Shown here piece after piece: positions 36,259-58,619 of a stretch of 64,000 nucleotides of DNA; positions within the stretch are counted from its first letter, which is position 1, and each line of letters opens with the position of its first letter. The stretch covers positions 62,001-126,000 of the forward strand of contig JAQBPO010000031.1 of the NCBI GenBank assembly GCA_028287465.1, in the 5' to 3' direction. This stretch comes from Fibrobacterota bacterium. Lineage in GTDB: Bacteria; Fibrobacterota; Fibrobacteria; UBA11236. The notes beneath the pieces are model-generated. The model made no database searches, was not told the origin of the DNA, and saw only the letters and a list, made by a program, of their open reading frames with translations. The translations under genes and the position numbers were made by a program.

Positions 36259-38316
36259 CTAAGCCCTCGCCGGCCGCCGCGGAATCACGGGATTGTCGTG
36301 GGCTTCCCGGCGTTCCGCCGCGCGAATGGCATCGCGATCGCCTTGGGCGCCCAGGTGGCTGGGGATGTAAACGGGATTGCGTCGCAACATCACCTGGACC
36401 CGGCGCGTTGCCATGCTGTCCCGGATGGAGGTGAAAGCGAACTTCTGCATCAACCGGTTGAGCTTCCACTCCAGGGAATGCTGGTTCACGTAATGTTGGA
36501 AGGTCTTGACCAGGCCCACGCTCACGCGGCGCTGATCCTGATCCAGCTCCCAGGGATGGAAATAGACCATGGCGGGATGGCCCTTGCGGTTGCAGGAGTC
36601 TATGAAGGTTTCCGTGACCACGTGCGGGAACAGGCGCAGGTAACCTCCACCGGACATGGGCAGGAATTTGTTGCCGACGCCCAGGGTGGACATGGGGAAT
36701 TCCATCATGGTCTTGCCGCTCTTCAGGTGCTGGGTATGCGGCAGGCGGTTCGGATAATGCGGGATGCCGTAGCGGTCGCGCTTGATGGGGAAGATGCTGG
36801 AATCGTACTTGAGGCCGTGCTTGGCCATGATTTCCAGGGCCCAGTAGGTGCTGGGCACGATGGTGAAGTTCGAGGCCCGGTGTCCGATGACGGGCTGGGT
36901 ATAGTTCCTGGCGATGGCTTCCAGGGACTTGGCGAGATCTTCCTCGTAGCTGGCCGGGGTCATGTCCGTGATCAGGTTGTGGTAATACCCATGGGTCCCG
37001 ATCTCATGGCCTTCCGATGCGATCATGCGGACGATCTCGGGGAAGCGCTCCGCCACCCAACCCAGCACGAAAAAGGTGGCCTTGGCCTCCTGGGAGCGGA
37101 ACAGGCCCAGGATGCGCTCCATGTTGGCTACGATGCGCGTCTCCTGCAGATGCCAGGTGGAAGGCGGCACCTTTTCCTTGAGGTTGTACGCATGGAACCA
37201 GCATTCCACGTCCACGGTCATGAAGTTGCGGACGCGGCTCTGCGGACGGGCCAGATCCACCACCTTGTCCATGTGGATCTCCTGGAGCATCCGGTGGACG
37301 CGGGGGCTGGGATCGCGCACGGCCATGCGGCCGCCCAGGCCGTTCACGCGGTGGGACAGGTCCACCAGGAAGCCCAGGTCGTCCAGATCGAAATCCTTAC
37401 GCGGGGTGTAGCACACTTCCAGGGTCTTGATGCCGCGGGCGGAAAGGCGGGCCAGGCGATCGGTGATCTCCGAAGGATCCTTGCCCTGGAGGACCATGGA
37501 GCGATCATCGCTGTCCAGCTTCACCCAGGCCGTGACCTTATGGGTGGAGCCGTGCTTCTTGGGCGCGTGCGCCAGCATGTTGAGGAGCTTGACGCGCTTG
37601 AGGCTCGCCAGATCGCGGGTATCCCCTTCCTTGCGGGGCTTGATGAGCAGGTAACCCACGGTGTTCATGAGCACCCACCATTCCATGCGCGCCCAGGAGC
37701 CGAAATGGCTGAAGGAGGCCCGGTAGGAATAATCGAAGTAGGTCTTGCGGACCACGCTCTCCATGCCCTCGTCGTAGCCGAGGGAGATCTGCGCGAGACC
37801 GGTCAGGCCGGGCTTGACCCAAAGGGTGCGGTTCTGGTAATGCGGGATGGTGCGGCCGAACTCGACGGTGAAATGCGCCCGCTCGGGACGCGGGCCGATG
37901 AAGCTCATGTCCCCGCGCAGCACGCTCCAGAATTGCGGGAGCTCATCCAGGTGGAGGGCGCGCAGCCACCATCCAACCTGGGTCACGCGCGGGTCGATGC
38001 CCTTGGCCGCCAATTGCGGCCCGTTCTTCTCCGCGTCCGTGCGCATGCTGCGGAACTTGTAGATCTCGAAAGGCTTGCCCCCCACGTCGGACTTGCGGAT
38101 GGGCGCGGGCTCTTCCCCGTCCGGGCCTTTTTCGCGGGGGCGGGACCGTTTGTTGATGCCCACCCGTTCCTGGCTATAGAGGATCGGGCCCGGGCTTTCC
38201 ATCTTGATGAGGATGGCCAGGATGGGGTAGAAAAATAGGAAGGCGCCGGTGCCCACAAGACCGACGGCTATATCGATCATCCGTTTCACGACGATGACGC
38301 TGGGACTGGGTCGCAT
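36259..38316 (-). CDS. Fusion: initiating sugar-phosphate transferase + STAS-like domain + polysaccharide deacetylase
   Basis: 685 residues with three parts. Residues 9-245 form a monotopic bacterial sugar transferase, which moves a sugar-1-phosphate to undecaprenyl phosphate: one membrane helix (about 13-38), 'PFEIYKFRSMRTDAE', 'LDELPQFWSVLRGDMSFIGP', 'WVKPGLTGLAQ'. Residues ~258-355 look like a STAS domain ('RLSARGIKTLEV', 'LGFLVDLSHRVNGLGGR', 'VHRMLQEIHMDKVVDL'). Residues ~362-620 are a polysaccharide deacetylase of the XrtA/PEP-CTERM-locus kind: 'FMTVDVECWFH' (D369), 'EGHEIGTHGYYH' (H437, H442), 'VYFHPWELD' (H587). The ATG at 38316 has AAGGAGCAGG directly before it. The transferase works on the cytoplasmic face, whereas such deacetylases usually act on sugars or polymer, so a single-compartment fusion is unexpected. 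Confidence 0.85.
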   Translation of the reverse strand: MRPSPSVIVVKRMIDIAVGLVGTGAFLFFYPILAILIKMESPGPILYSQERVGINKRSRPREKGPDGEEPAPIRKSDVGGKPFEIYKFRSMRTDAEKNGPQLAAKGIDPRVTQVGWWLRALHLDELPQFWSVLRGDMSFIGPRPERAHFTVEFGRTIPHYQNRTLWVKPGLTGLAQISLGYDEGMESVVRKTYFDYSYRASFSHFGSWARMEWWVLMNTVGYLLIKPRKEGDTRDLASLKRVKLLNMLAHAPKKHGSTHKVTAWVKLDSDDRSMVLQGKDPSEITDRLARLSARGIKTLEVCYTPRKDFDLDDLGFLVDLSHRVNGLGGRMAVRDPSPRVHRMLQEIHMDKVVDLARPQSRVRNFMTVDVECWFHAYNLKEKVPPSTWHLQETRIVANMERILGLFRSQEAKATFFVLGWVAERFPEIVRMIASEGHEIGTHGYYHNLITDMTPASYEEDLAKSLEAIARNYTQPVIGHRASNFTIVPSTYWALEIMAKHGLKYDSSIFPIKRDRYGIPHYPNRLPHTQHLKSGKTMMEFPMSTLGVGNKFLPMSGGGYLRLFPHVVTETFIDSCNRKGHPAMVYFHPWELDQDQRRVSVGLVKTFQHYVNQHSLEWKLNRLMQKFAFTSIRDSMATRRVQVMLRRNPVYIPSHLGAQGDRDAIRAAERREAHDNPVIPRRPARA

Positions 38317-38677
38317 CCTGCTCCTTGCGCGCGCGGGGCGCCTTTCCAAAAACCGTCGGATCCGACAACGGATCCGGATATGCGTTGCAATCTTAGGGGA
38401 TGGCCGGGCTTTTTTCCAAGATTATCGGAATTTGACCGGTTTCTGGCCATTTTCAAGGAAATTGAAGGACCGGGGGCCGGCCCGCTCCCTTCGCCGGGCT
38501 CCCAGGATGCATCGGGATGGCTTCGGAAACGCGCCGGGAAAGCATCGGGAAAGTTTGCATTTGATTTCACTTCGCGCCTCCGCAAAACCTTATTTCCCAT
38601 TATAGGCTTTACGACCGCACCAGTGAAAAATCGGTAGAAGAACAGCGTTGGGTATCGGCCATGCCGATGGGGGCTCC
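38317..38677. other. 361-bp divergent intergenic region with a 12-bp palindrome
   Basis: No gene is seen between the transferase fusion and dedA. The palindrome GTCGGATCCGAC at 38355-38366 is followed two bases later by AACGGATCCGGA, giving two CGGATCCG centres 14 bp apart, about 40-60 bp upstream of the transferase start. This could be an operator for it. The rest is featureless, with A/T-rich pieces near 38400-38460. Confidence 0.3.
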
Positions 38678-44060: not shown

Positions 44061-47000
44061 ATGCCCCCACGCGCCAGGACCGTTACCAGGATGTTGCTGC
44101 TCCCGTTCATGGTCCTCCTGGCCGCCCTTTCCGGATGCCAGCGCGCCCCCAAACCGGGGCCGGATTTCGGGACCAGCCGCGTCCAGGGCGTGCGATTCGA
44201 TCCGTCCTACTACTACGATCTGAAACGGCCCTTGCGCGAGTTCGTGGACTCTTCCGTGGGCGAGTGGCAGTCCCGGGGCATCAACACCATCTTCTTCAAG
44301 GCCTATGACGCCGAGTTCGGGGCCGTCTACAAGACGGGCTATTCCGGCAACCGCAAGACCGACTACGGCGACAAGGATCTCCTGAGGCTTTTCCTGGACG
44401 CGGCGCATAAGCGCGGGGTACGCCTGGTCGCATGGATGCCGGCCTTCGAGCACAAGGGCGCCTGGGAGGCGCATCCGGAGTGGCGGATCAAGGCCTCGGA
44501 CGGCTCGGACCTCATGCCCCTGCCGGATCACCATTTCCTGTGCGTGCGCCAGCCCGGCGTGGCGGAGTGGTGGAAGGGGTTCGTCGGGGATCTGCTGAAA
44601 CGCTATCCCGATCTGGACGGGATGGATTTCGCCGAACCCGCCATCGTCTGGAAAGGCACGGTGACCTGCGCCTGCCCCGTCTGCAAAAAGGAGATCGCCT
44701 CGGGAGGGCGGGACCCGTTCTCCCCGGAGGCGGTGGCCGAGCGCGCCCGCGGCATGACCGATCTCCTGCTGGCCTCGACCGCCGCCGTGAAAAGGGCGGG
44801 CAAGACCGCCTGCGTCACCTTCATCGCCACGGCGGACCGTTCCACGGACCTGCTCCCCTTCGCGCGCCAGAAGGATCTCACCGGCCTGGACGTGGATCGC
44901 CTGCTCGAGTCCCCGGATCGGCCGCAATGGGTTTCCATCGAGATGATGTGGCAGCAATGGGCGGACACCTACGACAATCCGGCCGCCTTCCGGCCGGCCT
45001 GGACGCGCAAGGCCGTGGAGCAGGCCCTGGCCCAGGTGGGGACCCGCGCCCATGTGGTGGCCCACGTGGAAATAACCCCGCTGGGCCCGGTGGAGGTCAG
45101 CCCCAACGAATTGACCGAAAGCATGGTGGCCGCGCGCGAAGGCGGGGCCCAGAGCATCGAGTTCTACGACACCCACCTTGCGGACAGCCTGGGGGCATGG
45201 CCCAACCTGGAACGGGCCTGGCGGACCCAGAGCGAGCGCAAGGCCGTGGTGTTCCACGATCCGGGGGGATTGGGAGTGGCCCGGCAGGTGGCGGTGCTCT
45301 TCGGCCACTTCGGCCTCAAGACCGTGGTGGCGGAGGTGGATTCCTTCTCGGATACCCTGATCCATCCCGGCGATCTGGCGGCCTACGTGGGCAACAAGGA
45401 GAATTACCCCCTGCCTGCGGCCTTCCTGGCCTGGGCGGCCCGCCCGGATTCGAAGCTGTTCTGGGCCGACTTCAACCTATGGCAGCTGGACCGGCCGATC
45501 CTGGGCGGCCATGGCGATACCAATACCTACAAGGATACGGCCCGCGGCCTCTCCAATGCGCCCAGCAACGGAACCCTGGCCCGCAAAGGCCTGAAGTTCG
45601 AATACCACCAGCGCACTTCCGAGTACCCCTTCGTCATGTACGGAGGGCAGGAGCTGTTCAAGACCGATTCGGTACTCAACGTGGTCTCGGTGCTGGATAC
45701 CGCCAAGGCGATCGTGCATGCCCGCGTGCGCTCGCGGGACGGGGACATGAAGCCCTATATCGTGCAGTCCGGGAACTTCTGGTACGTGGCCGATTGCCCC
45801 ACCGACTATATCGTGGAAGGCGGCCGGGACGCGGCGTTCGCGGATCTGCTTCACGAGTTCGTCGGGGACATGCATCCGGTCAAGCGCACGGCCCTGGTCC
45901 GCATCGAGGACGTGTGCCCGCTGACCGATCCCCTTTCCATCAAGGCCATCGCCGACTACCTGAGCGGGGAAGGCGTGCCCTTCTCCATCGCCCTGGTCCC
46001 CTTCTACGTGGACCCGGACGAGAACGTGGCCGCCAGCCTTTCCGACAAGCCGGAGCTGGCCAAGGCCATCCGGTACGCCATGTCCAAGGGCGCCGCCATC
46101 GTCATGCACGGGAGCACCCACCAGTACCGGGGCCGCTCGACCCACGATTACGAGTTCTGGGACGCCCTGCACGATGATCCCCTATTCGAGGATTCCAAGG
46201 AATACGTGCGCCTGCGGCTCCAGCGCGGCATCGACGAGATGCGCAAGAACGGCATCTACCCGATAGTGTTCGAGACGCCCCATTACGCCTGCTCCCAGCT
46301 GGACTACTCCGTCATCGATCGCTTCTTCTCCGCGGAATACGGGCGGAGGCAGGTCATCGACAAGACCGGTTTCGATCAGCTCGTCCCCTACTTCATCGCC
46401 CGGCATCCTTCCGGCACCTCCATCATCCCCGAGAACCTGGGGTACGTCCCCAACGATCGCCAGGACGCGGCGCCGCTCCTCCGCTTCGCCAAGAACAACC
46501 TGGCGGTCCGGGACGGCTTCGCCAGCTTCTTCTTCCATCCCTGGATCGACAGGAAGGTCCTGAAGGACCTGGTGGAAGGCATCCGCGGCATGGGTTACCG
46601 GTTCTCGGACATCCGTGGGCTGCAACTGGACATGCAGGCCCAGGGTATCGTTCAGGTTACGGGTAGCCGCGAGGCCGTACTCAACCCGCAGGGCAAGTAC
46701 CTCCGCACCTTCTACCTGGACGCGACGGGCGAAAAGCACGAAGAGTGGATATCCGGCGATCCCGTCTCCGTGGAATTCCGGAAGGCCGTCCATTGCCCGC
46801 CGGGCTGGACCTTCGTAGCGGAAGCCATCGACAAGCCGGAGGGCTGGATGCCCCGCTTCTCCAAGCAAGAACAGGGATTCCTGGGCAAGGCGCGCCAAAG
46901 GCTGTTCTATTCGCCCGCCCTGCGCACCGCGCAAGGCGCTCCGGCCCGGCCCTGCGTCCTCTGGGTGCCGCCGGGATTCGCCAAGGGCCATCCCCATTGG

Positions 47001-49412
47001 CATCCCCCGTCCTATGGCGGACCCGTTGTTTCAACGGGCGGACCCGTTCCAACGGGCGGACCCGCGCCGGCGGATTCCGCTTCCTTGGGCTCGGTCAAAG
47101 CCACCCGGGCGGCGACGGCCCTCCGCCCCGGGACCGATACCGCAACCCTGGGCGCCGGGCCCGCCTCCGCCAGCCATATCCGCTTCCCCGAAAGCCAGGC
47201 CTCCTGGGTGCGCGCCTTCCGCGCCTGCGGCATCGACGTGGACACCTTGCGGGTGGACCGATTCCTGGAAATCCCCGATGAGAACAACCTCGTCGTGGTG
47301 CCCGCCCAGGCCGCGGCCTACCTCTCGACCCAGCAGGCCCTGATGCTGGGGAAATGGGTGGCCAAGGGCAGGGCCGTGATCCTGGAAGGCCCCTCCACCC
47401 TGGCCGAATTGATCGGCATCCGAGCGACGGATTCCGGAAAGACCGTGACGGACCTGAAGGACGACTTCCTGCCCCAGGTGGAAGTGAAGTGGAAGGAACC
47501 TTCGCCCTACCTCATCTTCGACGCGGACGTGGAGTACGTGAACGAATACAGCACCTCCGAGGACGCGCCCCTGGTGGCCGGCGGCGAATACGGGGAAGGC
47601 AAGTACCTCTTCTTCGCCACCCCGTTCGCGGCGGACTCCTCCCATTCCGGACCCTATCGTTTTCCCTTCTTCCTGGACATGGTGCAGCGCGAATTCGACC
47701 TGCATCCCGCCCTCCGCTCCCCGAACCTGGAGGTCTACTTCGATCCGGGCAACCGCGAGGACTTCCCCCTGGAACAACTGGTGGCCGCCTGGCACAAGAA
47801 CGGGGTCAGGGCGGCCTACCTCGCCGGCTGGCACGAATACGACAAATACACCTTCGAATACGCCTACCTGACCGAACTCCTGCACAAGAACGGGATCCTG
47901 GCATACGCCTGGCTGGACCTCCCCGAGGTGTCGGACAAGTTCTGGCACGACCATCCCGCCTGGCGCGAGAAGACCGCGGCCGGCACGGATGCGGAGATGG
48001 ATTCGGAAATCGGCTGGAAGCAGTACATGAACATGAGCAACGACACCTGCCGCGCGGGCGTCTACAACTCTTACAAGCGCCTATTGCAATCGGCCGCCTG
48101 GGACGGGGCCGCGCTCACGGGCCGCATGTTCGCCGGGGACGGGCCGAAGGATTCCCTGAAGCATATCACGCCCTTCCATCCCTCCTTCCGGGCCGCGTAC
48201 GCCGCCGCGCGCGGCTATGACCCCATCCGCATCTTCGATCCGGCCGCGCCGCAGTTCCACGGCAGGTCCCTGCGTTATTGGAACGAGTTCTCGGCCTACC
48301 GCGATTCCCTGGAACTCGCCTTGACCCGGGACGCCATCGCGTTCCTCAAGCAGCAACGCGTCCTGCAGCGGCCCGGCACGGAAATCATCCTGACGCGCAG
48401 CCTGGACGGGGCCTCCCCGGCGGCCAAGGCCTGGTACCATGACCTTACGGAAAAGGATCCCCAGGTGCGGCTGCAGGCCTCCCCGGCCCGGACCTCCATG
48501 AACGCGGCCGTGCTCCTGGAGGATTTGTCGCGCTGGCGCGCGGAGTACCCCCGATGGCGGCCGATGGTCGAGATCCATTTCGACAACCATAAGTCCGCGA
48601 GCGGCGTGACCGGCCAACTGTGCGGGCTGGAGCTGATGGACCTGGTGGCCGGCGCCGAGCAGGCGGGAACGCGCCTGTCCCTGCGGACGGAGGATTATAT
48701 CTACGATACCGATTTCCGCGATCTGTCCTATGCGGCCGCGGCCTCAGCCAGCGAACGCATTTCCCCCTCCGGCTGGACCATCCGTTCCCAGGGCCGGACG
48801 GTCCTGGAACTGGACGAGAAGGCCAATCCGGAAGTCCTGGTGGACGGCGGCCTGTGGCCGGCCTACGTCAAAGGCCGCCTCCTTCTGCCCGAAGGCGAGC
48901 ACCGCGTGGAAGGCTGCCCTCGCCTGATCGCGTGGAAGACCCTGTTGCAGGCTCCCGCGCGCATCACCGGTTTCACCGGAGGCATCACGGAAGCGCAGAC
49001 CACCCTGCAAGGCCTGCGCCTTCGTTACGAATCCGCCCTCCCGGTCTCCCTGGGCGTGTCCATGGCGCCCCGCTCCGCCACCCTGGACGGCTTGCCCTTC
49101 AACCTGCCCGCGGCGCCCCTCCAGGGCCGGCCGGGCGTTCCGAAAGGCGGCGAGGCCGCGGCCGGCATGGGCCTGAGCCTGCCGTCCGGCAGCCATGTGG
49201 TGGAAATCATCACCCGCCCGTTCGCCACCTCCCTCATGCGCCAGGCCAGCATCGGGCTTTCCGGCATCATCATCGTCATCAGCTCCATCACCGTGCTGGC
49301 CTTCCTCCTCCTCTATCTGGGCGGGATGGCGAAGCGGGTGTATAACGGGGACGATGTCGACGAGGACCCGAAAGGGAAACCGAAGAACGCGAAATCCAAG
49401 ATCGGAGATTAG
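44061..49412 (+). CDS. Giant exopolysaccharide-processing lipoprotein: two glycosidase-like barrels, two Rossmann-like modules, DUF2334 deacetylase
   Basis: 1783 residues. ATG 44061 follows CGGAG and gives a lipoprotein signal ending LSGC (Cys26). Order: GHL10/PgaB-like barrel (~44-390; 'DGMDFAEPAIVW', candidate acids near 187); Rossmann-like module (~394-597; 'VVFHDPGGLGVARQVAVLFG'); DUF2334 deacetylase (~608-853; 'RTALVRIEDVCP', 'VMHGSTHQY', 'FETPHYACS', 'FFFHPWID'); beta region and GGP linker; second Rossmann-like module (~1040-1200); second barrel (~1223-1540; 'NLEVYFDPGNRED', 'NGILAYAWLDLPEV'); beta domain; membrane helix (~1730-1757). Hydrolase, Rossmann and deacetylase in this order recall PelA, and DUF2334 beside GT2 recalls B. 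subtilis YdaL/YdaM. It would trim and deacetylate the polymer made by the next gene product, outside the cytoplasm. Confidence 0.85.
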   Translation: MPPRARTVTRMLLLPFMVLLAALSGCQRAPKPGPDFGTSRVQGVRFDPSYYYDLKRPLREFVDSSVGEWQSRGINTIFFKAYDAEFGAVYKTGYSGNRKTDYGDKDLLRLFLDAAHKRGVRLVAWMPAFEHKGAWEAHPEWRIKASDGSDLMPLPDHHFLCVRQPGVAEWWKGFVGDLLKRYPDLDGMDFAEPAIVWKGTVTCACPVCKKEIASGGRDPFSPEAVAERARGMTDLLLASTAAVKRAGKTACVTFIATADRSTDLLPFARQKDLTGLDVDRLLESPDRPQWVSIEMMWQQWADTYDNPAAFRPAWTRKAVEQALAQVGTRAHVVAHVEITPLGPVEVSPNELTESMVAAREGGAQSIEFYDTHLADSLGAWPNLERAWRTQSERKAVVFHDPGGLGVARQVAVLFGHFGLKTVVAEVDSFSDTLIHPGDLAAYVGNKENYPLPAAFLAWAARPDSKLFWADFNLWQLDRPILGGHGDTNTYKDTARGLSNAPSNGTLARKGLKFEYHQRTSEYPFVMYGGQELFKTDSVLNVVSVLDTAKAIVHARVRSRDGDMKPYIVQSGNFWYVADCPTDYIVEGGRDAAFADLLHEFVGDMHPVKRTALVRIEDVCPLTDPLSIKAIADYLSGEGVPFSIALVPFYVDPDENVAASLSDKPELAKAIRYAMSKGAAIVMHGSTHQYRGRSTHDYEFWDALHDDPLFEDSKEYVRLRLQRGIDEMRKNGIYPIVFETPHYACSQLDYSVIDRFFSAEYGRRQVIDKTGFDQLVPYFIARHPSGTSIIPENLGYVPNDRQDAAPLLRFAKNNLAVRDGFASFFFHPWIDRKVLKDLVEGIRGMGYRFSDIRGLQLDMQAQGIVQVTGSREAVLNPQGKYLRTFYLDATGEKHEEWISGDPVSVEFRKAVHCPPGWTFVAEAIDKPEGWMPRFSKQEQGFLGKARQRLFYSPALRTAQGAPARPCVLWVPPGFAKGHPHWHPPSYGGPVVSTGGPVPTGGPAPADSASLGSVKATRAATALRPGTDTATLGAGPASASHIRFPESQASWVRAFRACGIDVDTLRVDRFLEIPDENNLVVVPAQAAAYLSTQQALMLGKWVAKGRAVILEGPSTLAELIGIRATDSGKTVTDLKDDFLPQVEVKWKEPSPYLIFDADVEYVNEYSTSEDAPLVAGGEYGEGKYLFFATPFAADSSHSGPYRFPFFLDMVQREFDLHPALRSPNLEVYFDPGNREDFPLEQLVAAWHKNGVRAAYLAGWHEYDKYTFEYAYLTELLHKNGILAYAWLDLPEVSDKFWHDHPAWREKTAAGTDAEMDSEIGWKQYMNMSNDTCRAGVYNSYKRLLQSAAWDGAALTGRMFAGDGPKDSLKHITPFHPSFRAAYAAARGYDPIRIFDPAAPQFHGRSLRYWNEFSAYRDSLELALTRDAIAFLKQQRVLQRPGTEIILTRSLDGASPAAKAWYHDLTEKDPQVRLQASPARTSMNAAVLLEDLSRWRAEYPRWRPMVEIHFDNHKSASGVTGQLCGLELMDLVAGAEQAGTRLSLRTEDYIYDTDFRDLSYAAAASASERISPSGWTIRSQGRTVLELDEKANPEVLVDGGLWPAYVKGRLLLPEGEHRVEGCPRLIAWKTLLQAPARITGFTGGITEAQTTLQGLRLRYESALPVSLGVSMAPRSATLDGLPFNLPAAPLQGRPGVPKGGEAAAGMGLSLPSGSHVVEIITRPFATSLMRQASIGLSGIIIVISSITVLAFLLLYLGGMAKRVYNGDDVDEDPKGKPKNAKSKIGD
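47016..47064 (+). repeat. Short tandem repeat in the giant gene (GGP linker)
   Basis: The unit GGCGGACCCG recurs three times (47016, 47037, 47055) with spacers TTGTTTCAACG and TTCCAACG, encoding GGPV-STGGPVPTGGPAP. It lies in the low-complexity linker between the deacetylase half and the second Rossmann-like module and may vary in copy number. Confidence 0.6.
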
Positions 49413-49419
49413 GACCTGA

Positions 49420-50742
49420 ATGCCGTATTCCCATCCCATCCTCGAATTCCTTTTCCTTTTCTCCGTAGTGGTCATCTGGGCCATGATCCTGTTCAACCTG
49501 ATGCTCACCTGGGGCGGGTACATCTACCGGCGCAAGTTCTTCAAGAACGAGGTCCCCCTGGCCGACGACGCGGACCTGCCCGGGGTTTCCGCCCTGATCC
49601 CGGCCCGCAACGAGGCCATGGTGATCGAGAAGACCGTGCGCGCCCTGTTGGCGATGGATTACCCGAAGGACAAGTTCGAGGTGATCGTCATCAGCGACCA
49701 TTCCAACGACGGAACCACGGAAATCGTCGAGCGGCTGTCGAAGGAGGATCCGCGCGTCCGCTGCCTGGGCTGGCCCGCACGGGAGCGGGGGTCCGGTAAG
49801 CCCCATGCCCTCAACGAAGGCCTCAAGCTCTGCCGCTTCCCCGTCATCGCCATCTACGACGGGGACAACAATCCGCGCCCGCAATCCCTGCGCATCCTCT
49901 CCTCGGCCATGGTGGCGAACCCGAACCTGACCGCCGTGCTGGGCAAGTTCCGCTGCATCAACCGCAACAAGAACCTGCTCACGCGCATGGTCAACATCGA
50001 GACCCTGAGCTTCCAGTGGATGATCCAGGCGGGCCGGTACTGGTTCTCCAAGTTCGCCATCCTGCCCGGCACCAATTACATCATCCGCAAATCGGCGCTG
50101 GATGCGGTGGGCGGATGGGACGTCAAGGCCATCACCGAGGATTCGGAATTGTCCGTGCGCCTGCAGATGATGGGCTACGAGGTGCAGTTCGTGCCCACCT
50201 CCGTGACCTGGGAGCAGGAGCCGGAGACCCTCAAGGTCTGGATCAAGCAGCGGACGCGCTGGGTGCGCGGCAACAATTACGTGCTCAGGAAGTTCGCCGG
50301 GCCGGCCCTCAAGTTCAGGAACCGCCACCTGACCATGGAGTTCCTCTACATGTTCGGGCTGTATTACCTGTTCCTCCTCTCCACCGTGCTCTCCCACGGC
50401 ATCTTCATCCTGAGCCTCCTGGGCGTCATCCGCATCGACATCCCGGGTCCCTATACGGCGGTATGGTATTCCGCCTACGCCCTCTACATGGCCGAGGTCT
50501 TCTTCGTGCTCTCGTACGAGAAGGAAGACACCTTGGGCAACTTCTTCGTCACCGCCCTGATGTACTTCACCTATTGCCAGCTGTGGATCTACGTGGTGTT
50601 CAAGTCCTTGCTGCTCGATTTCACCCGCACGCGCGTAGGCGTCTGGGACAAGACCGTTCGCTTCAAGACCGACGCCGAGATCCCGCCGGAAAACCCGGTG
50701 GAACCCCGCGACAAGGCGAAGGCGAAAAAGTCCGATGATTGA
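49420..50742 (+). CDS. Processive family 2 glycosyltransferase (polysaccharide synthase)
   Basis: 440 residues. One membrane helix (7-29) precedes the GT-A domain with the nucleotide-sugar motifs 'PARNEAMVIEKT', 'VISDHSNDGT', DGD at 147-149, TED at 239-241 and the processivity motif QRTRW at 277-281. At least three helices follow (~305-335, ~345-365, ~378-402). This set of motifs marks synthases that polymerise and push the chain across the inner membrane (PgaC, hyaluronan synthase, YdaM type). No PilZ domain is present. It starts seven bases after the giant gene and overlaps the next gene by 8 bp, so synthesis and processing proteins are made together. Confidence 0.9.
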   Translation: MPYSHPILEFLFLFSVVVIWAMILFNLMLTWGGYIYRRKFFKNEVPLADDADLPGVSALIPARNEAMVIEKTVRALLAMDYPKDKFEVIVISDHSNDGTTEIVERLSKEDPRVRCLGWPARERGSGKPHALNEGLKLCRFPVIAIYDGDNNPRPQSLRILSSAMVANPNLTAVLGKFRCINRNKNLLTRMVNIETLSFQWMIQAGRYWFSKFAILPGTNYIIRKSALDAVGGWDVKAITEDSELSVRLQMMGYEVQFVPTSVTWEQEPETLKVWIKQRTRWVRGNNYVLRKFAGPALKFRNRHLTMEFLYMFGLYYLFLLSTVLSHGIFILSLLGVIRIDIPGPYTAVWYSAYALYMAEVFFVLSYEKEDTLGNFFVTALMYFTYCQLWIYVVFKSLLLDFTRTRVGVWDKTVRFKTDAEIPPENPVEPRDKAKAKKSDD

Positions 50743-52024
50743 GTCGCGCCCCGCCTTGCTTCCGATCCTGCTGGCTACCATCCTTTCCGCCGTTTCCGTC
50801 CGCGTCCTGGCGGCCCCCGCGCCGGCCGATACGGAGACAGCGGCCGATTCGGCGATAGCGCAAGCGGAGAACGATGGGCGGGACACCGCCGAGGCCGATC
50901 CGATCGCGGAAGCGGAAGGGGATGAAGGGGAAGGTTCCGATCAACCCTTGTGGATGGACTCCTATGGCGAAGGCGTCTTCTCGCGCCATGACGACCGGAA
51001 CCTTTCCGGGTTCACCGAGTTCAAGGTCGGCAAGCGCTTCAAGACCCGCCTGCCCATGGACCTGTACCTCAAGACGCGCCTCTACCGCGACCAGCGGGAT
51101 TTCTACTGGAACAACCGCGCGGACGCGGGGGCGGGCGCGCGCGTCTCCCTGCTCAAGAAGGTCTCCTTGACCTTATTCGGCGAGGTGGTCGCCGGCCAAT
51201 ACCTGCGCCTCTCTTCCGGTGCCCTCGGGTTCGGCGGCCTGCAGGGCCGCATCGAAGGGAACCGCGCGGCGATCGATGCCGCGCAGAGCGAGTACCAGGC
51301 GATGTACAAGGAGATTTTCCAGGCCCATCTGCTCGACGACCCCAAGATCAACCGCGAGACCATCGCCCATCTGGATACCACGGGCAATATCCATCTCCAG
51401 AACCTGGTGCGCCTGAACGCGCGCCTCGACAGCCTGGAGACCTCGAAGGACAGCATGAGCCAGGCGATGGACAGCATCGGCCTGGTTCCGGCCGGCGCGG
51501 TGACGGAGTACCGGGCCGGGCTCGTATTCTGGCACGCTTGGGGACAGGATGAGGCGGAAGGGGAAGGCCCGGCGGAAGGCTCGGCGCGGCCCCGTTTCCG
51601 GTTCCCCTTGAGGTTCTGGGGCGAGGCGTATTCGGATTGGATCTTCTCGTCCCTGAGCCGCCATGTGCGCTCCCGCGGAGGCGGGGAAGCGTACCGCGAC
51701 AGCGTCGCGCGGTTCCGCAACCTCATCTTCTACGCCAACCCGGATGTGGGGATGATGCTGATGGAAGGCCTGGCGGGATCCGTATCCGCCTACGGGACCG
51801 CCTATGTCTGGTTCGATACCCATAAGGATTGGTGGAACAATCTGGCCATGGCCGGCCCGGGCCTGCGGTACAAACCCCTGGGCGCGCTCGATCTGGTCTT
51901 CAAGGCCGAATACCTTTGGGGCCGGTATTACGGGCGCGAACGCAAGGAAGATCCCAATCCTTACGCGCGTAACCTGCGGGATGTGCGCCTTACGGGAAGT
52001 TTCTGGTACGGCCTGGGGATTTGA
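50735..52024 (+). CDS. Outer-membrane barrel, probable exopolysaccharide export pore
   Basis: 429 residues with a signal peptide (MIESRPALLPILLATILSAVSVRVLA) and an acidic linker rich in Glu, Asp and Ala (~30-72). Amphipathic strands begin at 'NLSGFTEFKVGKRF'. A helical insertion (~169-250; 'GLQGRIEGNRAAIDAAQSEY...RLDSLETSKDSMSQAMDS') probably forms a coiled coil. Strands resume at 'RFPLRFWGEAYSDWIFSSLS' and end with 'DVRLTGSFWYGLGI'. The 'DWWNNLAMAGPGLRYKP' segment is like the C-terminal barrels of polysaccharide porins of the BcsC/PgaA/NfrA kind. No TPR scaffold is attached, unlike those porins. Function as the pore is inferred from position between synthase and propeller genes. Confidence 0.65.
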   Translation: MIESRPALLPILLATILSAVSVRVLAAPAPADTETAADSAIAQAENDGRDTAEADPIAEAEGDEGEGSDQPLWMDSYGEGVFSRHDDRNLSGFTEFKVGKRFKTRLPMDLYLKTRLYRDQRDFYWNNRADAGAGARVSLLKKVSLTLFGEVVAGQYLRLSSGALGFGGLQGRIEGNRAAIDAAQSEYQAMYKEIFQAHLLDDPKINRETIAHLDTTGNIHLQNLVRLNARLDSLETSKDSMSQAMDSIGLVPAGAVTEYRAGLVFWHAWGQDEAEGEGPAEGSARPRFRFPLRFWGEAYSDWIFSSLSRHVRSRGGGEAYRDSVARFRNLIFYANPDVGMMLMEGLAGSVSAYGTAYVWFDTHKDWWNNLAMAGPGLRYKPLGALDLVFKAEYLWGRYYGRERKEDPNPYARNLRDVRLTGSFWYGLGI

Positions 52025-52047
52025 TCCCGGGAAAGATGGAGGATGGA

Positions 52048-53616
52048 ATGCATTGCATCGAACGGAAATCCCATGGCGCGGCCTTTTCAGGCTTTGCGGC
52101 AATGAAGGCCTTCTCAGGCTTGGCAGGCTCGGCGGCCGCACCGGTCCTGGCCGCCCTTACGGCAATGGCGACAATGGCGGCCATGGCAGCGCCCACCGCC
52201 GGAGCCGTGCCTCCCGGGGGGCAATTGTGGCGCTTCTACGCGGACTATAGCGTGACCGTTGTGGCGGCCACCCCTGACCTGTCCGGGAACGGCGGCAAGG
52301 ACGTATTGGTGGGATCCCAGGACGATTCCCTGTACCTGGTGGAGGGCAAAGGGCCCAAGGCCGGGTTCCAGCTCTGGTCCGCTCCCTTCCGGTCCACCCT
52401 GAGCGCCGCGGCCTCCATTCCGGACGTGAACGGGGACGGGAAGGCGGACGTGGCCGGAGGCGACGAGCTCGGCCTCATCCAGGCCTTGTCCGGGGCGTCC
52501 GGCCAGGCCCTGTGGAAATACCTCACCTTCGGGACCATCCTCAGCGTGGTTTCCGCGCCGGATGCCAACGGCGACGGGATCGCCGACGTCGCCGCGGCCA
52601 GCGAGAACGATACGGTCTATTGCCTGTCCGGAAAACCGGACGGGGCCCTGGGCAAGGTGTTGTGGCAATTCGGGTTCCTGGGCACCAAGCACGGCGGCGG
52701 AGGCGGAAAGCCCAAAACGTCGTCAGCGCCGGCATCCGCGGTCGCGGGTTCCCCGTCAGCCGCCCTCCCGGGCCCCAAGGACGGGGCTTCGGGGGCCAAC
52801 AGCCTAGCGGTGCTGGCGGATAAAAGCGGCGCGTTCGGCATAGCCGTGGGTACCAGCGCGGATACGGTCTACTGCCTGGCCCCCGCCACCGGAACGCCCA
52901 AATGGAAGACCGGCCTTCCCGGGGACGTCTGGAAGGTGGCCGCATTCCCGGATCAGGACGGCGATGGCATCAGCGAGGTGCTCGCCGCATGCGGCGCCGA
53001 CAAGGCCTATCTGCTCAAGGGAGCCACGGGCGAGATCCTCTGGTCCCATCCTGTCTCCCTCGGCGCCCTCTCCCTGGCCGTCACCGAGGACATGAACGGG
53101 GACGGGAAGGCCGACGCCCTCATCGGGGACGGGGGAGGAAAGGTCCATTGCGTATCCGGCGCGGCCAAGGGAGCCGACGTCGCGGCGGTTTGGACCTACG
53201 ACTTCGGCGATACCAGCAGCATCCTGTCCCTCGCCCCCATGGGCGACGTGGATAAGGACGGCAAACCGGACTGCGCGGTGGGAACGTCCAACGATTCCGC
53301 CGCCCTCTTGGGCGGCAAAGGCGTGCGGGTCTGGTCGGTCAGCCTGGGCGGGGACGTGAAATCCGTGGCCGATATCGGCGACGTGGACGGCAACGGCACC
53401 GACGATATGGGAGCGGGTTCCGCATTGGGTTTCGCCTCGGCCCTGTTCGGAGGGGGTCCGGCCCCCATCGCGGCACGGGAGGGTTACGGTCCGAGGGCGC
53501 GGCGGGCCGTCGGGAGCGGTGCCGACCAACCTCATGACGCGAACGGAAGGCTGCGTTCCGGACGCGGATCGCGGCCGTTCGCTGGAGCATTCTGGAACGG
53601 GCAAGGGGGCCGATGA
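52048..53616 (+). CDS. Secreted FG-GAP/PQQ-like beta-propeller protein of the exopolysaccharide operon
   Basis: 522 residues. The best start is ATG 52048 (GGAGG a few bases upstream). A TTG at 52021 overlapping the previous stop is also possible. The N-terminus has a long Ala/Met-rich hydrophobic segment (~24-50), a signal peptide or anchor. Repeats carry the FG-GAP acidic loop 'D-x-NGDGxxD' / 'DKDGKPD' / 'DVDGNGTDD' alternating with PQQ-like strands ('LSGASGQALWKYLTFG', 'LKGATGEILWSHPVSLG'). A Gly/Lys/Ser/Pro spacer interrupts at ~217-250. The acidic loops bind calcium. The last ~50 residues are Arg/Gly-rich. It may bind the polymer or scaffold the export complex. The stop overlaps the epimerase start (ATGA). 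Confidence 0.7.
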   Translation: MHCIERKSHGAAFSGFAAMKAFSGLAGSAAAPVLAALTAMATMAAMAAPTAGAVPPGGQLWRFYADYSVTVVAATPDLSGNGGKDVLVGSQDDSLYLVEGKGPKAGFQLWSAPFRSTLSAAASIPDVNGDGKADVAGGDELGLIQALSGASGQALWKYLTFGTILSVVSAPDANGDGIADVAAASENDTVYCLSGKPDGALGKVLWQFGFLGTKHGGGGGKPKTSSAPASAVAGSPSAALPGPKDGASGANSLAVLADKSGAFGIAVGTSADTVYCLAPATGTPKWKTGLPGDVWKVAAFPDQDGDGISEVLAACGADKAYLLKGATGEILWSHPVSLGALSLAVTEDMNGDGKADALIGDGGGKVHCVSGAAKGADVAAVWTYDFGDTSSILSLAPMGDVDKDGKPDCAVGTSNDSAALLGGKGVRVWSVSLGGDVKSVADIGDVDGNGTDDMGAGSALGFASALFGGGPAPIAAREGYGPRARRAVGSGADQPHDANGRLRSGRGSRPFAGAFWNGQGGR

Positions 53617-54740
53617 TGGAAACCGTAGCCCGCAAACCCCTGATCGCCTTGGCATTCGGGACCCGTCCCGAAGCCGTCAAAATGGTCCCGGTCATCCGCG
53701 CCCTCAAGGCCCGGCCCGAACTCTCCACCCTGGTGATCTCCACCGGCCAGCACAAGCAGATGCTGACCCAGATCCTGGAACGCTTCGATATCCGGGTGGA
53801 TCACGAGATGGATCTGATGGAACCGAACCAGAGCCTGTACCGGTTGAGCAGCAAGGCCATCGCCGCCTTCGAGGAGGTCCTGACCCGGACCCGCCCGGAC
53901 ATGATGCTGGTCCAGGGCGACACCACTACGGCCTTCCTGGGCGCCCTGTGCGCCTTCTACGGGAAGATCCCCGTGGGCCATGTGGAAGCGGGCCTCCGCA
54001 CCAACGACAAGTACTTCCCCTTCCCGGAGGAGATCAACCGCCGCCTCATCACCGCCTGCGCGGACATCAACTTCTGCCCCACCCAGGGCAACAAGGACAA
54101 CCTCCTGCGCGAAGGCCTGCGCGAGGAGACCATGATCATCACCGGGAACACCGGCATCGATACCCTGCTGTTGGCGGCCGCCATGGAGCATCCCTTCCCC
54201 CTGCCCGATCTGGATCTGCGGGGAAAGCGCATGATCCTCGTGACGGTCCACCGCCGGGAAAGCTTCGGCGAGCCCATGGAGCGGATCTTCTCGGCCATCC
54301 GGGAATTGGCCGATGCCTATCCGGACGCCCAGGTCGTCTACCCCGTCCACCTGAACCCCAACGTGCAGAAACCGGCCCGGGAAATCCTCGGCGGCGTCGC
54401 CAATATCCACCTTGTCCCGCCCATGGACTATTTCGACTTCGTGGCCCTGATGGGCAAGGCCCACCTCATCCTCACCGATTCCGGCGGGGTGCAGGAAGAA
54501 GCCCCGACCTTGGGGGTTCCGGTGCTGGTGCTGCGCAACGAAACCGAACGGCCCGAAGCGGTGCAGGCCGGCACGGTCCGCCTGGCGGGAACGCGGCGCG
54601 AGGATATCGTGCGGGAGGCGCGCCTGCTGCTCGACAACGAAGCCGAACGGGCCAAGCTGGCCGGCGCGTCCAACCCTTACGGGGACGGCAAGGCCGCGCC
54701 CCGGATCGTCGCGGCCATCCTGAAGCATTTCGGGCTATAG
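53613..54740 (+). CDS. wecB: UDP-N-acetylglucosamine 2-epimerase (non-hydrolysing)
   Basis: 375 residues. Interconverts UDP-GlcNAc and UDP-ManNAc in the cytoplasm. Family blocks: 'LIALAFGTRPEAVKMVPVIR', 'LVQGDTTTAFLGALCAFYGK', 'PVGHVEAGLRTNDKYFPFPE', 'VTVHRRESFGEPMERIF', 'ILTDSGGVQEEAPTLGVPVL' and 'RNETERPEA', including the substrate-binding Asp/Glu/His residues. It is the last gene of the coupled exopolysaccharide operon (ATGA overlap), so it probably supplies UDP-ManNAc to the GT2 synthase. No UDP-ManNAc dehydrogenase follows. ATG 53616 is an alternative start. Confidence 0.92.
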   Translation: MMETVARKPLIALAFGTRPEAVKMVPVIRALKARPELSTLVISTGQHKQMLTQILERFDIRVDHEMDLMEPNQSLYRLSSKAIAAFEEVLTRTRPDMMLVQGDTTTAFLGALCAFYGKIPVGHVEAGLRTNDKYFPFPEEINRRLITACADINFCPTQGNKDNLLREGLREETMIITGNTGIDTLLLAAAMEHPFPLPDLDLRGKRMILVTVHRRESFGEPMERIFSAIRELADAYPDAQVVYPVHLNPNVQKPAREILGGVANIHLVPPMDYFDFVALMGKAHLILTDSGGVQEEAPTLGVPVLVLRNETERPEAVQAGTVRLAGTRREDIVREARLLLDNEAERAKLAGASNPYGDGKAAPRIVAAILKHFGL

Positions 54741-54967: not shown

Positions 54968-56674
54968 ATGCACCGATGGATAGCCCCGGCCGTCCTGGCC
55001 TTGGCCGCCGCGCCGGTTTTCGCGCAATTGACCTATAAGGACTGCGCCGCCCTGCAGGCCACGGACTTCCAGATGACCGAACTGCTCAACAAGAAGGGGA
55101 CGGACGGGGCCGCCCCGGATCCGGACCTCTCCGAACCCACGCGCATGGACGTGCAGGTGGTGACCAAGGGCGGGGCCTATTCCCATTCGAACATCTTCTT
55201 CGTCGAGCGCCTGGGCAACGTGAAGTATTACGACGGGGCCGCCAAGAAGGTGACCCTGATGGGCAAGATCAACGTATGGGGCAAGGCCGACAACGGCCTG
55301 ATGGGGATAGTGATCCATCCCGATTACGAGAAGAACCGCTGGATCTACCTCTGGTATTCGCCCAACCAGCTCATCGGCCAGAACCGCCAGCTCCGCCTCA
55401 CGCGCATCACGGTCAAGCCGGACAATACCCTGGACATGGCCTCGGAGAAGATCCTCATCAACATCCTGGCCAGCAAGACCGATACCTGGCACAGCGGAGG
55501 ACCCATGCAGTTCGACGCCTATGGCGATTTGTGGGCCGGGGTGGGGAACAACAGCTCCGATCTCAATCCGGACGCGTGCAGCCTGGGAAACAGCGTGCTA
55601 TCCCGGACGGACAGCACCAACAGCGCCGAATGGGGACCGTCCAATACCGCAAGCCTGCGCGGCGGATTCTTCCGCATCCATCCCGACAGCTCCGCCAAGG
55701 GCTATTCCATCCCCCGGGGCAATTTCGGCGAATATTGGGCGGACCAGTTCGAGAAGCAGGGAAAGGCCGATATCGCGGCCCAGTACCGGGATCCCAAGAA
55801 GGTGCTTCCCGAGGTCTACGTCAAGGGCGAGCGCAGCAACTTCTCCATCGGCGTGCATCCCACCAAGCGCTGGCTGGGCTGGGGCACGGTCAACTACTCC
55901 AACGTCAACGACGAGTTCAACATCACCGATCACCCCATCTTCACGGGATTCCCCTACTACCACAACAACAACATCAAGACCTGCGATCACAATATCGACG
56001 CGAACGCGCCCCGGAACACCTCGCCCCTGAACAGCGGGGTGGCCGATCTCCCGCCCGCCATCGCCGGGTCCATCAACAACCTGGTCAACGTCGCCATCGG
56101 CGGGCCCATCTACCATTTCGATCCGAGCCTCGCTTCGGAAACCAAGTTCCCGCCCCAGTTCGACAACAAGTGGCTGGTGGCCGGCTTCCAGGCCGGCATG
56201 TGGGCGGTGACCGTGGATACGAATACGCTCAAGGTGAACAATACCCTCAAGGTCGACAACGGCATCTTCGGCTCCTTCAAGATCCGCAACCATGTCGGCT
56301 CCATGTACGGCAAGGACGGGGCCCTCTACATCCTCAATTACGACGGGTACTACGACCAGGCGATCAATCCCGGCGTCATGCGCGTGACCTACAAGGGCTC
56401 CTGCCGCGTGCCGGTGGCGGCCGCGGATCCCAAGCCGCAGGGCTACCAGAAGATTTGGTTGTCCCAGGCAGCCTTGGAAGTGGGGGAACGGGGCCGCCAT
56501 ACCTTCGCCCTATACGATCTGGGCGGGCGCCGGATCTTCAGCGCGGAGGCGGATGGCGCCGCGCGCTATGCCTTCGCCGGACTGCTGGGAGGCGTCAGCC
56601 CGCGCCCGGGAGTTTACGTGGTGAAGGTTGAAACCGCCCAAGGCCATTTCATGCGGCAGGTTTCCCTGCTTTGA
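54968..56674 (+). CDS. Secreted PQQ-dependent sugar dehydrogenase-like protein (copy 1)
   Basis: 568 residues with a signal peptide (MHRWIAPAVLALAAAPVFAQ). The body follows the soluble glucose/sorbosone dehydrogenase (GSDH) propeller pattern: 'EPTRMDVQVVTKGG', 'GNVKYYDGAAKKV', 'DNGLMGIVIHPDYEKNRWIY', 'TWHSGGPMQFDAYGDLWAGV', 'YGKDGALYILNYDGYYD'. The C-terminus ('HTFALYDLGGRRIFSAEADG...GVYVVKVETAQG') is a type IX-like sorting tail. Enzymes of this fold oxidise sugars using PQQ, but whether this one binds PQQ cannot be told from sequence alone and no PQQ-synthesis gene is in view. GGGAGA lies just upstream of ATG. A close paralogue follows at 56865. Confidence 0.8.
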   Translation: MHRWIAPAVLALAAAPVFAQLTYKDCAALQATDFQMTELLNKKGTDGAAPDPDLSEPTRMDVQVVTKGGAYSHSNIFFVERLGNVKYYDGAAKKVTLMGKINVWGKADNGLMGIVIHPDYEKNRWIYLWYSPNQLIGQNRQLRLTRITVKPDNTLDMASEKILINILASKTDTWHSGGPMQFDAYGDLWAGVGNNSSDLNPDACSLGNSVLSRTDSTNSAEWGPSNTASLRGGFFRIHPDSSAKGYSIPRGNFGEYWADQFEKQGKADIAAQYRDPKKVLPEVYVKGERSNFSIGVHPTKRWLGWGTVNYSNVNDEFNITDHPIFTGFPYYHNNNIKTCDHNIDANAPRNTSPLNSGVADLPPAIAGSINNLVNVAIGGPIYHFDPSLASETKFPPQFDNKWLVAGFQAGMWAVTVDTNTLKVNNTLKVDNGIFGSFKIRNHVGSMYGKDGALYILNYDGYYDQAINPGVMRVTYKGSCRVPVAAADPKPQGYQKIWLSQAALEVGERGRHTFALYDLGGRRIFSAEADGAARYAFAGLLGGVSPRPGVYVVKVETAQGHFMRQVSLL

Positions 56675-56864: not shown

Positions 56865-58619
56865 GTGTTTTCAAGGTCCATCACGTCTATGGGTGCCGCG
56901 CTCTCGCTCTCCCTATCGCTGTCCCTTTCACTGTACGCGCCGGCCCGGGCCCAGCTCGCCTACAAGGGATGCGGCGATCTCCAGGCCGCGGATTTCCAGG
57001 CCGTCGAACTCTTCAACAAGACCGGCACGGCCGGCGCGGCGATGGACACGAGCATTTCCGAACCCACCCGCATGGACGTGCGCATCGTGAACAAGAACGG
57101 CGCCTACGACCACTCCGACATCTACTTCGTCGAACGCCTCGGCAGCGTGAAGTATTACGATGGCGCGGCCAAGACCGTCAGCCTGATGGGCAAGATCGAT
57201 ACCTGGGGCAAGATCGACAATGGCCTCATGGGCCTGGCCTTGAGCCCGGATTTCGAGACCAACCGCAACATCTTCTTCTGGTATTCCCCCAACAAGCTGG
57301 CCGGGCAGAACCGCAAGCTCCGCCTCACCCGCATCAAGGTCAAGCCGGACAATACCCTGGACATGGCCTCGGAGAAGATCCTCATCGAATTCCTGGGGAG
57401 CAAGACCGACAATTTCCACAGCGGCGGCCCCATGATGTTCGACTCCTACGGGGATCTGTGGATCGCCGTTGGGAACAACAGCGTGGACCTGGACCCGGCC
57501 ACCTTGAACGTCCTCTCCAGGACCGACAGCACCCAGAGCGCGGAATGGGGCCCCTCCAATACGGCCAGCATGCGGGGCGGTTTCCTGCGCATCCATCCGG
57601 ACGAGTCGGAAAAGGGCTACTCCATCCCCCGGGGCAACTTCGGGGAATATTGGGCCGATCAATTCGAGAAAATGGGCCGCGCCGATCTGGCCGCGCAATA
57701 CCGGGACCCCAAGAAGGTGCTTCCCGAGGTCTACGTCAAGGGCGAGCGCAGCAACTTCTCCATCGGCGTGCACCCCACCAAGCGCTGGCTGGCCTGGGCC
57801 ACGGTCAACTACTCCAACGTGAACGACGAGTTCAACATCACGGGCCATCCCATCTTCTCGGGCTTCCCGTATTTCCACAACGACAACCTGAGGACGGGCG
57901 CCCATACCATCGATCCCGCCGCCCCCCGCAACGAATCGCCCTTGAACAGCGGGGTGGTGGAGCTGCCGCCCGCCATCCCGGGCTCCATCAACAACCTGGT
58001 CAACGTGGCCATCGGCGGGCCCATCTACCGTTTCGATCCGAGCCTCAAATCGGACGTCAAGTTCCCGCCCCAATTCAACGATAAATGGCTGATCACGGGA
58101 TTCGGCGGGGGCATGTGGGTGGTGACCGTGGATACGGTGACCTTGAAGGTCCTCAATACCCAGCAGGTGGACAAGACCGTGTTTTCCGGAGTCAAGATCC
58201 GCAACCATGTGATGTCCATGTTCGGCAAGGACGGCGCGCTCTACGTGCTCAACTACGACGGCTACTACAACTCGGCCAAGAACCCCGGCGCCATGCGCAT
58301 CACCTACAAGGGGCCGTGCCAGGTGCCCTTGGCCCTGCGTCCGGAACCCGCCGCCGAAGGGTACTTCAAGATCACCCTGTCCCAGGCGGGCCTCAAGGTC
58401 GGCGAGAAAGGCCGCCATGCCTTCAGCCTTTTCGACCTTTCCGGCCGCCGGGTATTCCGGGCGGAGGGCGGTGAAGGAGCGGAATACCGTTTCCGCGATC
58501 TGGCCTTGGGCGCGGGATCCGGCGACGGGTCCGCTCCGGGCGGCGCCCCTCACGGAGTCTATCTGGTGGAAGTAAGGACGGCCCAAGGCCGTTTCGTCCG
58601 CAGCATCACCCTGATGTAG
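56865..58619 (+). CDS. Secreted PQQ-dependent sugar dehydrogenase-like protein (copy 2)
   Basis: 584 residues, starting at GTG 56865 (GGGGAG upstream). The signal peptide is rich in Ser/Leu repeats (ALSLSLSLSLSLYAPARA). The GSDH-type propeller is nearly collinear with copy 1: 'EPTRMDVRIVNKNG', 'DNGLMGLALSPDFETNRNIF', 'NFHSGGPMMFDSYGDLWIAV', 'VYVKGERSNFSIGVHPTKRW', 'FGKDGALYVLNYDGYYN'. Long stretches between 55800 and 57770 are almost identical at the DNA level to copy 1, so the duplication is recent or under gene conversion. It ends with a sorting tail ('HAFSLFDLSGRRVFRAEGGE...GVYLVEVRTAQG'). The last 14 bp overlap the convergent TPR gene. Confidence 0.8.
   Translation: MFSRSITSMGAALSLSLSLSLSLYAPARAQLAYKGCGDLQAADFQAVELFNKTGTAGAAMDTSISEPTRMDVRIVNKNGAYDHSDIYFVERLGSVKYYDGAAKTVSLMGKIDTWGKIDNGLMGLALSPDFETNRNIFFWYSPNKLAGQNRKLRLTRIKVKPDNTLDMASEKILIEFLGSKTDNFHSGGPMMFDSYGDLWIAVGNNSVDLDPATLNVLSRTDSTQSAEWGPSNTASMRGGFLRIHPDESEKGYSIPRGNFGEYWADQFEKMGRADLAAQYRDPKKVLPEVYVKGERSNFSIGVHPTKRWLAWATVNYSNVNDEFNITGHPIFSGFPYFHNDNLRTGAHTIDPAAPRNESPLNSGVVELPPAIPGSINNLVNVAIGGPIYRFDPSLKSDVKFPPQFNDKWLITGFGGGMWVVTVDTVTLKVLNTQQVDKTVFSGVKIRNHVMSMFGKDGALYVLNYDGYYNSAKNPGAMRITYKGPCQVPLALRPEPAAEGYFKITLSQAGLKVGEKGRHAFSLFDLSGRRVFRAEGGEGAEYRFRDLALGAGSGDGSAPGGAPHGVYLVEVRTAQGRFVRSITLM

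Follow-up and report, generated by a model that had tools for sequence, protein, structure and literature searches.

What polysaccharide is made by the five genes at positions 44061-54740 of a 64,000-nucleotide stretch of Fibrobacterota DNA (hereafter the window), and how would it leave a cell with two membranes? We propose that these genes, A to E, form a stand-alone exopolysaccharide system of the synthase-dependent type, of one kind with Pss, PGR and Nfr, in a two-membrane cell, with a polymer of N-acetylmannosamine (ManNAc) and its export as predictions; we give this reading a probability of roughly 0.65. Gene content, conservation, homology, motifs and model folds were read directly, and from them we infer the sugar and its linkage, how the polymer is exported, and what C and D do. 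A check of the window found five intact open reading frames (ORFs) in the order A-B-C-D-E, all in one direction:

Gene A, 44061..49412, + strand: giant hydrolase/deacetylase of 1783 residues
Gene B, 49420..50742, + strand: processive family 2 glycosyltransferase (GT2) synthase of 440 residues, a PssC homologue
Gene C, 50735..52024, + strand: outer-membrane barrel of 429 residues, as predicted by AlphaFold
Gene D, 52021..53616, + strand: FG-GAP/PQQ beta-propeller with a Sec signal, 531 residues as an ORF
Gene E, 53613..54740, + strand: non-hydrolysing UDP-GlcNAc (uridine diphosphate N-acetylglucosamine) 2-epimerase of the WecB type, 375 residues

An earlier note on this DNA had read the five genes as a tightly packed exopolysaccharide operon. 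The packing holds at the A/B (7 bp gap), B/C (8 bp overlap) and D/E (ATGA overlap) junctions, but probably not at C/D, where a TTG at 52021 overlaps the stop codon of C; judged by the signal peptide, D more likely starts at the ATG at 52102, which leaves a gap of ~77 bp and a protein of 504 residues. Because a sigma-70 scan returned no promoter-like site, a single transcription unit is suggested by spacing and conservation only; predicted terminators were not in excess, and scans for Rfam families and tRNA genes found none in the window. The synthase, propeller and epimerase calls were all matched by Pfam or NCBIfam families. A Pfam scan of the operon proteins found no PilZ, MshEN, GGDEF or tetratricopeptide repeat (TPR) domain, in agreement with the earlier view that the operon holds no PilZ domain or other receptor for cyclic di-GMP (c-di-GMP). 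Since GGDEF proteins are encoded elsewhere in 10 of 10 carrier genomes and none in the operon, control by c-di-GMP is possible but is not built into the locus.

The order A-B-C-D-E recurs in four of the six genomes of the Fibrobacterota genus to which the window belongs. Three of these four loci adjoin the same RRM/methyltransferase genes, and the fourth is split over two contigs. A search of the remaining 164 of 168 Fibrobacterota genomes for A returned nothing beyond one weak partial match. In the phylum KSB1, A was found in 10 of 82 genomes, at full length where the contig permits, and B, C and D adjoin one another on all nine contigs that reach past A or start at B. Identity to the window is 54-57% for B and about 30% for C and D. 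E lies next to D in all four Fibrobacterota loci and is adjacent in five of seven assessable KSB1 loci (three on the same strand, two as the next gene on the opposite strand), two of the nine KSB1 contigs ending too early for E to be judged. On these counts we regard A-B-C-D as a strict core and E as a frequent, non-obligatory neighbour. That two phyla share this order, with identities of about 30-87%, lies far above chance. All carriers found are metagenome-assembled genomes, but an assembly artefact would hardly yield one order on independent contigs of both phyla. The prospect, raised in the earlier note, that the genes might not travel together in relatives is thus contradicted, and a synthase-dependent polysaccharide operon that is real and recurrent is supported by gene content and order; the five-gene order belongs to one Fibrobacterota genus and part of KSB1, and not to Fibrobacterota in general.

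The evidence on the product begins with the synthase. B retains DGDN (the DxD motif), TED and QRTRW (QxxRW), and no domain was found by Pfam after its membrane segments. It is 44% identical to Listeria PssC over 415 residues (350 bits), followed in our panel by an Enterococcus homologue (346 bits) and Acinetobacter GT2s (265-277 bits), with E. coli PgaC (113 bits), BcsA (94 bits) and NfrB (30 bits; 29.6 unrounded) far below. With Listeria PssC as the query, B scored 350 bits and the other tested GT2s of this genome at most 124. By these comparisons B belongs with the PssC synthases; the affinity is drawn from pairwise scores because long branches left the base open in a GT2 tree with PgaC, BcsA and NfrB. 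The Listeria polysaccharide is beta-1,4-ManNAc with galactose (PMC4125290, PMC5039582, PMC5422440, PMC6307706), and pssC is required for it (PMC4125290).

The epimerase points the same way. E matches Epimerase_2 and, at 464 bits against a cut-off of 210, the wecB family; WecB-type enzymes produce UDP-ManNAc, and E is predicted from its sequence to supply it. As the genome holds a second epimerase, 33% identical to E, E is best viewed as a dedicated extra copy. In Acinetobacter, too, a wecB-type gene stands beside a PssC-like GT2, and on plasmids of Streptomyces (L091) and Comamonadaceae (L086) such a gene accompanies a GT2 and a DUF2334 gene. The Comamonadaceae locus resembles an Nfr system that has acquired a DUF2334 deacetylase, since an NfrA_C/TPR porin and DUF4434 are also there. 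The epimerase is the best clue to the product and is no oddity in such a locus; given the PssC homology and the recurrent WecB neighbours, the product is probably a partly deacetylated ManNAc polymer.

A, the largest protein, matches GHL6 (35.8 bits) and DUF2334 (166 bits) in Pfam and is made up of the following parts (residue numbers of A):

About 40-395: N-terminal TIM barrel, GHL6-like
About 403-854: deacetylase core, GATase-like plus DUF2334
About 1045-1190: second GATase-like segment
About 1220-1580: second TIM barrel, PgaB-like
About 1565-1720: beta-sandwich

A had been described as a lipoprotein. It does have an N-terminal signal with a lipobox-like LSGC, but an alignment shows that the lipobox is not kept in all KSB1 relatives, whereas a C-terminal transmembrane helix (about 1725-1750 by hydropathy) is. 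The deacetylase core aligns along almost its full length with stand-alone DUF2334 proteins from Burkholderia and Comamonadaceae, and the motifs RxED, HGxTH, SFFxH (the presumed metal site), ETPHY and IPENLGY are kept in all relatives that cover them. The first TIM barrel is GHL6/GHL10-like with E192 and E294 conserved, and in KSB1 it also touches GHL13, the PgaB hydrolase family. An AlphaFold model of residues 1041-1729 (predicted local distance difference test score, pLDDT, 76) shows a GATase-like domain, a TIM barrel and a beta-sandwich. In VIA-align comparisons this second barrel matched the C-terminal domain of PgaB best (Z 21.7, 309 aligned residues, 4.1 A), with several other TIM-barrel hydrolases within one Z unit of it. 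A sequence search of the PDB with A returned just one weak match, to an alpha-L-fucosidase, and no TPR was matched in A. In the second barrel, the KSB1 motif DGxNxAELYY is replaced in the Fibrobacterota genus by DGxxLTGRMF, with loss of an acidic residue that KSB1 keeps, so the barrel of the window may bind the chain and not cut it.

C is the sole predicted outer-membrane barrel of the operon, and it follows B directly on every sufficiently long contig in both phyla. The structure prediction proposed earlier to check the barrel call was run and returned a 12-strand transmembrane barrel (mean pLDDT 73, strands mostly 84-94) with a helical insertion at 164-247 that is peculiar to the Fibrobacterota genus. 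The N-terminal half of C is homologous to its C-terminal half (hhalign probability 99.8%, E 2e-27), from which we read C as a duplicated six-strand unit. No relative of C was found in Pfam, NCBIfam, PHROGs, plasmids or viral contigs, and no TPR was matched. Its fold neighbours are autotransporter barrels, CymA and KdgM/NanC-like oligosaccharide porins, at a high root-mean-square deviation of about 4-6 A, and AlgE appears only far down the Foldseek list for this model. We tried to assign C to a known exporter family by fold and rejected the assignment, as the best matches were autotransporter and porin barrels at high deviation. One genome of the genus (G001) carries a diverged C paralogue (31%; L026:3483-4682, - strand) without the other operon genes. 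It adjoins the RRM gene, where the whole operon lies in other genus members, and the true operon of this genome is on other contigs.

These features feed the likeliest of the alternatives, in which C is an accessory or structural outer-membrane protein (an anchor for D, or an oligosaccharide porin) and the polymer exits otherwise or stays in the periplasm. A barrel of only 12 strands with no TPR, its porin and autotransporter neighbours with AlgE so far down, and the lone paralogue would all suit it. Against it stand the position of C, directly after B in both phyla and with no other predicted outer-membrane barrel in the operon, and the general knowledge that polymers do pass barrels of autotransporter size. 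We consider it unlikely that C is an accessory protein only.

Next, at a shade less credence, comes a different sugar: a polymer like poly-N-acetylglucosamine (PNAG), or another hexosamine, with the epimerase balancing the UDP-HexNAc pool or serving a different glycan. The best curated family for B is indeed PgaC_IcaA (TIGR03937), A has a PgaB-like domain, and E is missing beside some KSB1 operons. B, however, reaches 161.6 bits in that family against a cut-off of 422.3 and is 27% identical to PgaC, its score with PssC is three times that with PgaC, and WecB-type epimerases recur elsewhere beside related synthases or DUF2334 genes. A PNAG-like product is therefore improbable in our judgement.

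D consists of FG-GAP/PQQ repeats. In KSB1 all three D proteins scanned end in a type A sorting tail (TIGR04183, 29-35 bits, cut-off 23) of the type IX secretion system (T9SS), and the T9SS translocon SprA was found in 10 of 10 genomes tested. D thus likely sits at the cell surface, at least in KSB1. No TIGR04183 tail was matched in three Fibrobacterota D proteins scanned or in the D of the window; by eye, the D of one Fibrobacterota locus (L024) has a longer, tail-like end. The C terminus of the window's D (53470-53616) overlaps the start of E, as if a tail had been eroded. In two KSB1 loci (L030 and L072) D is duplicated in tandem, with both copies directly after C. A BamB-like periplasmic scaffold that replaces TPRs was considered for D and dropped as the lead view after the KSB1 tails were found. 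A third alternative to a free exopolysaccharide is a glycan attached to the cell wall or to proteins, such as a decoration of surface or T9SS cargo proteins. It would fit an associated T9SS cargo protein and a giant membrane-anchored modifying enzyme, but is very unlikely with a synthase of the processive PssC type, known from a member that produces insoluble polymer outside the cell, and with no ligase or lipid-linked transferase in the operon.

The ManNAc exopolysaccharide system that we favour would work as follows. E would convert UDP-GlcNAc to UDP-ManNAc, and B would polymerise it at the inner membrane and hand the chain to the periplasm. There A, anchored through its C-terminal helix, would use its DUF2334 domain to take off part of the acetyl groups and its TIM barrels to bind or trim the chain, and would thereby do the work for which other systems have distinct PgaB- and BcsB-like proteins. 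The chain, or short chains, would cross the outer membrane through C, and D, a propeller on the outer surface that in KSB1 gets there by type IX secretion, would hold or organise the polymer.

Several observations weigh against this scheme. E was not found in two KSB1 loci with about 2-7 kb of downstream sequence, and with these and the E paralogue in view, the UDP-ManNAc supply may not serve B alone. The neighbourhood argument is thinned by the Streptomyces GT2 beside wecB, which is only about 25% identical to B, and by its Comamonadaceae counterpart, which is NfrB-like. C has 12 strands, whereas an NfrA-type exporter has 16 and a TPR arm; a barrel as small as the modelled one may not be wide enough, unless C forms an oligomeric pore or the model errs. 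Finally, the D of the window has no recognisable T9SS tail, which we take to have been lost.

Comparison with described loci places the operon more closely. The kinship with Listeria pss and Bacillus yda suggested in the earlier note stands, as B is 44% identical to PssC and DUF2334 adjoins the synthase. In Listeria monocytogenes pssA-E a DUF2334 gene lies directly upstream of the GT2 (locus order DUF2334, GT2, BcsB, GGDEF); unlike our operon, that locus has a BcsB-like PssD and a c-di-GMP receptor, PssE, and lacks an outer-membrane part and an operon epimerase. Its DUF2334 match is weak (29 bits) and without the HxxxH pair of A in the alignment. In the L. innocua protein at the PssB position (L081:4485-5984), HxxxH of A falls on DVPVVTY in a profile alignment of low identity, which suggests that this DUF2334 may lack the usual deacetylase site, though PssB is listed as a deacetylase. 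Bacillus subtilis ydaJKLMN, compared by description, shares the DUF2334-GT2 pair according to the earlier note, and the B. subtilis control gave DUF2334 and BcsB matches; it differs in its c-di-GMP receptor YdaK, its BcsB-family protein and its Gram-positive host. BcsB (PF03170) had no match in 10 of 10 carrier genomes, with E. coli and B. subtilis as positive controls. We set the locus apart from Pss proper because the synthase and DUF2334 were found, but BcsB and the receptor were not.

Among Gram-negative systems, Acinetobacter baumannii PGR (pgrA-G) has a GT2 36% identical to B with a WecB (PgrF) adjoining; it differs in BcsB (PgrD), the DUF4434/PgaB-like PgrE, the TPR/porin PgrG and a degenerate GGDEF-like PgrA, and in having no DUF2334 match, no C-type barrel and no propeller. 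The published account, in the part available to us, gives GT2, BcsB, DUF4434 and WecB for this locus and does not state that the GT2 is PssC-like (PMC12507263). In our comparison of the Acinetobacter loci (L084, L083), PgrC is homologous to PssC (39%), and the StAb3 phage receptor might on that ground be a Listeria-type poly-ManNAc. The E. coli Nfr synthase needs WecB; the studies that describe it favour a polymer of ManNAc and point out that wecB adjoins nfrB in species that lack a separate pathway (PMC8669469, PMC8669472). NfrB-NfrA-YbcH with WecB thus resembles our operon in synthase, outer-membrane pore and WecB-supplied UDP-ManNAc, but NfrB has an MshEN domain and is about 20% identical to B, and NfrA has TPRs and a 16-strand barrel. 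The PNAG locus pgaABCD shares a GT2 and a deacetylase with a PgaB-type TIM barrel, but has a TPR porin (PgaA), a PgaB deacetylase that is not DUF2334 and no operon epimerase. Pel (pelABCDEFG) likewise fuses a periplasmic hydrolase and a deacetylase in PelA, but these are GH166 and CE21, its porin PelB has TPRs and its synthase is a GT4.

The earlier claim of a distinct system therefore stands in part: no single described locus was found with this gene set, but the kind is known from a PssC homologue and from Gram-negative WecB-linked synthase loci already published, E. coli Nfr and Acinetobacter PGR. New here are the duplicated 12-strand barrel, the propeller with a T9SS tail in KSB1, the deacetylase fused to two TIM barrels, and an operon without a PilZ, TPR or GGDEF part in carrier genomes without BcsB. 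The main text of a survey of synthase-dependent operons mentions neither Fibrobacter nor Listeria nor ManNAc (PMC7112194), and a literature search on DUF2334 returned one unrelated paper, a result of little weight as most subscription papers were out of reach. More tentatively, and with the odds somewhat against it, C may found a new exporter family, a small duplicated 12-strand barrel without a TPR arm that partners the giant A and a T9SS-delivered propeller; A would merge BcsB-, deacetylase- and PgaB-like functions, and ManNAc-polymer export and anchoring would be coupled to T9SS in FCB-group bacteria.

The prediction gives a gene set of two little-studied phyla a chemically specific product, a ManNAc polymer. 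One synthase family ties together Listeria Pss, Acinetobacter PGR and this operon, and their products could be tested in a single comparison. The operon would also show how a polymer made by a synthase can cross the outer membrane without a TPR protein, and would link such a polymer with type IX secretion.

Two other regions of the window were also noted. Directly downstream of the operon, tandem genes at 54968-56674 and 56865-58619 (+ strand) encode glucose/sorbosone dehydrogenase-like proteins; both have weak type IX secretion tails, and homologues lie near the operon in two relatives. Elsewhere, a single ORF at 36259-38349 (- strand) joins an EpsB/WcaJ-like sugar transferase, a weak STAS match and an XrtA-type polysaccharide deacetylase (TIGR03006, 291.8 bits, cut-off 276), and it is kept in other members of the genus.

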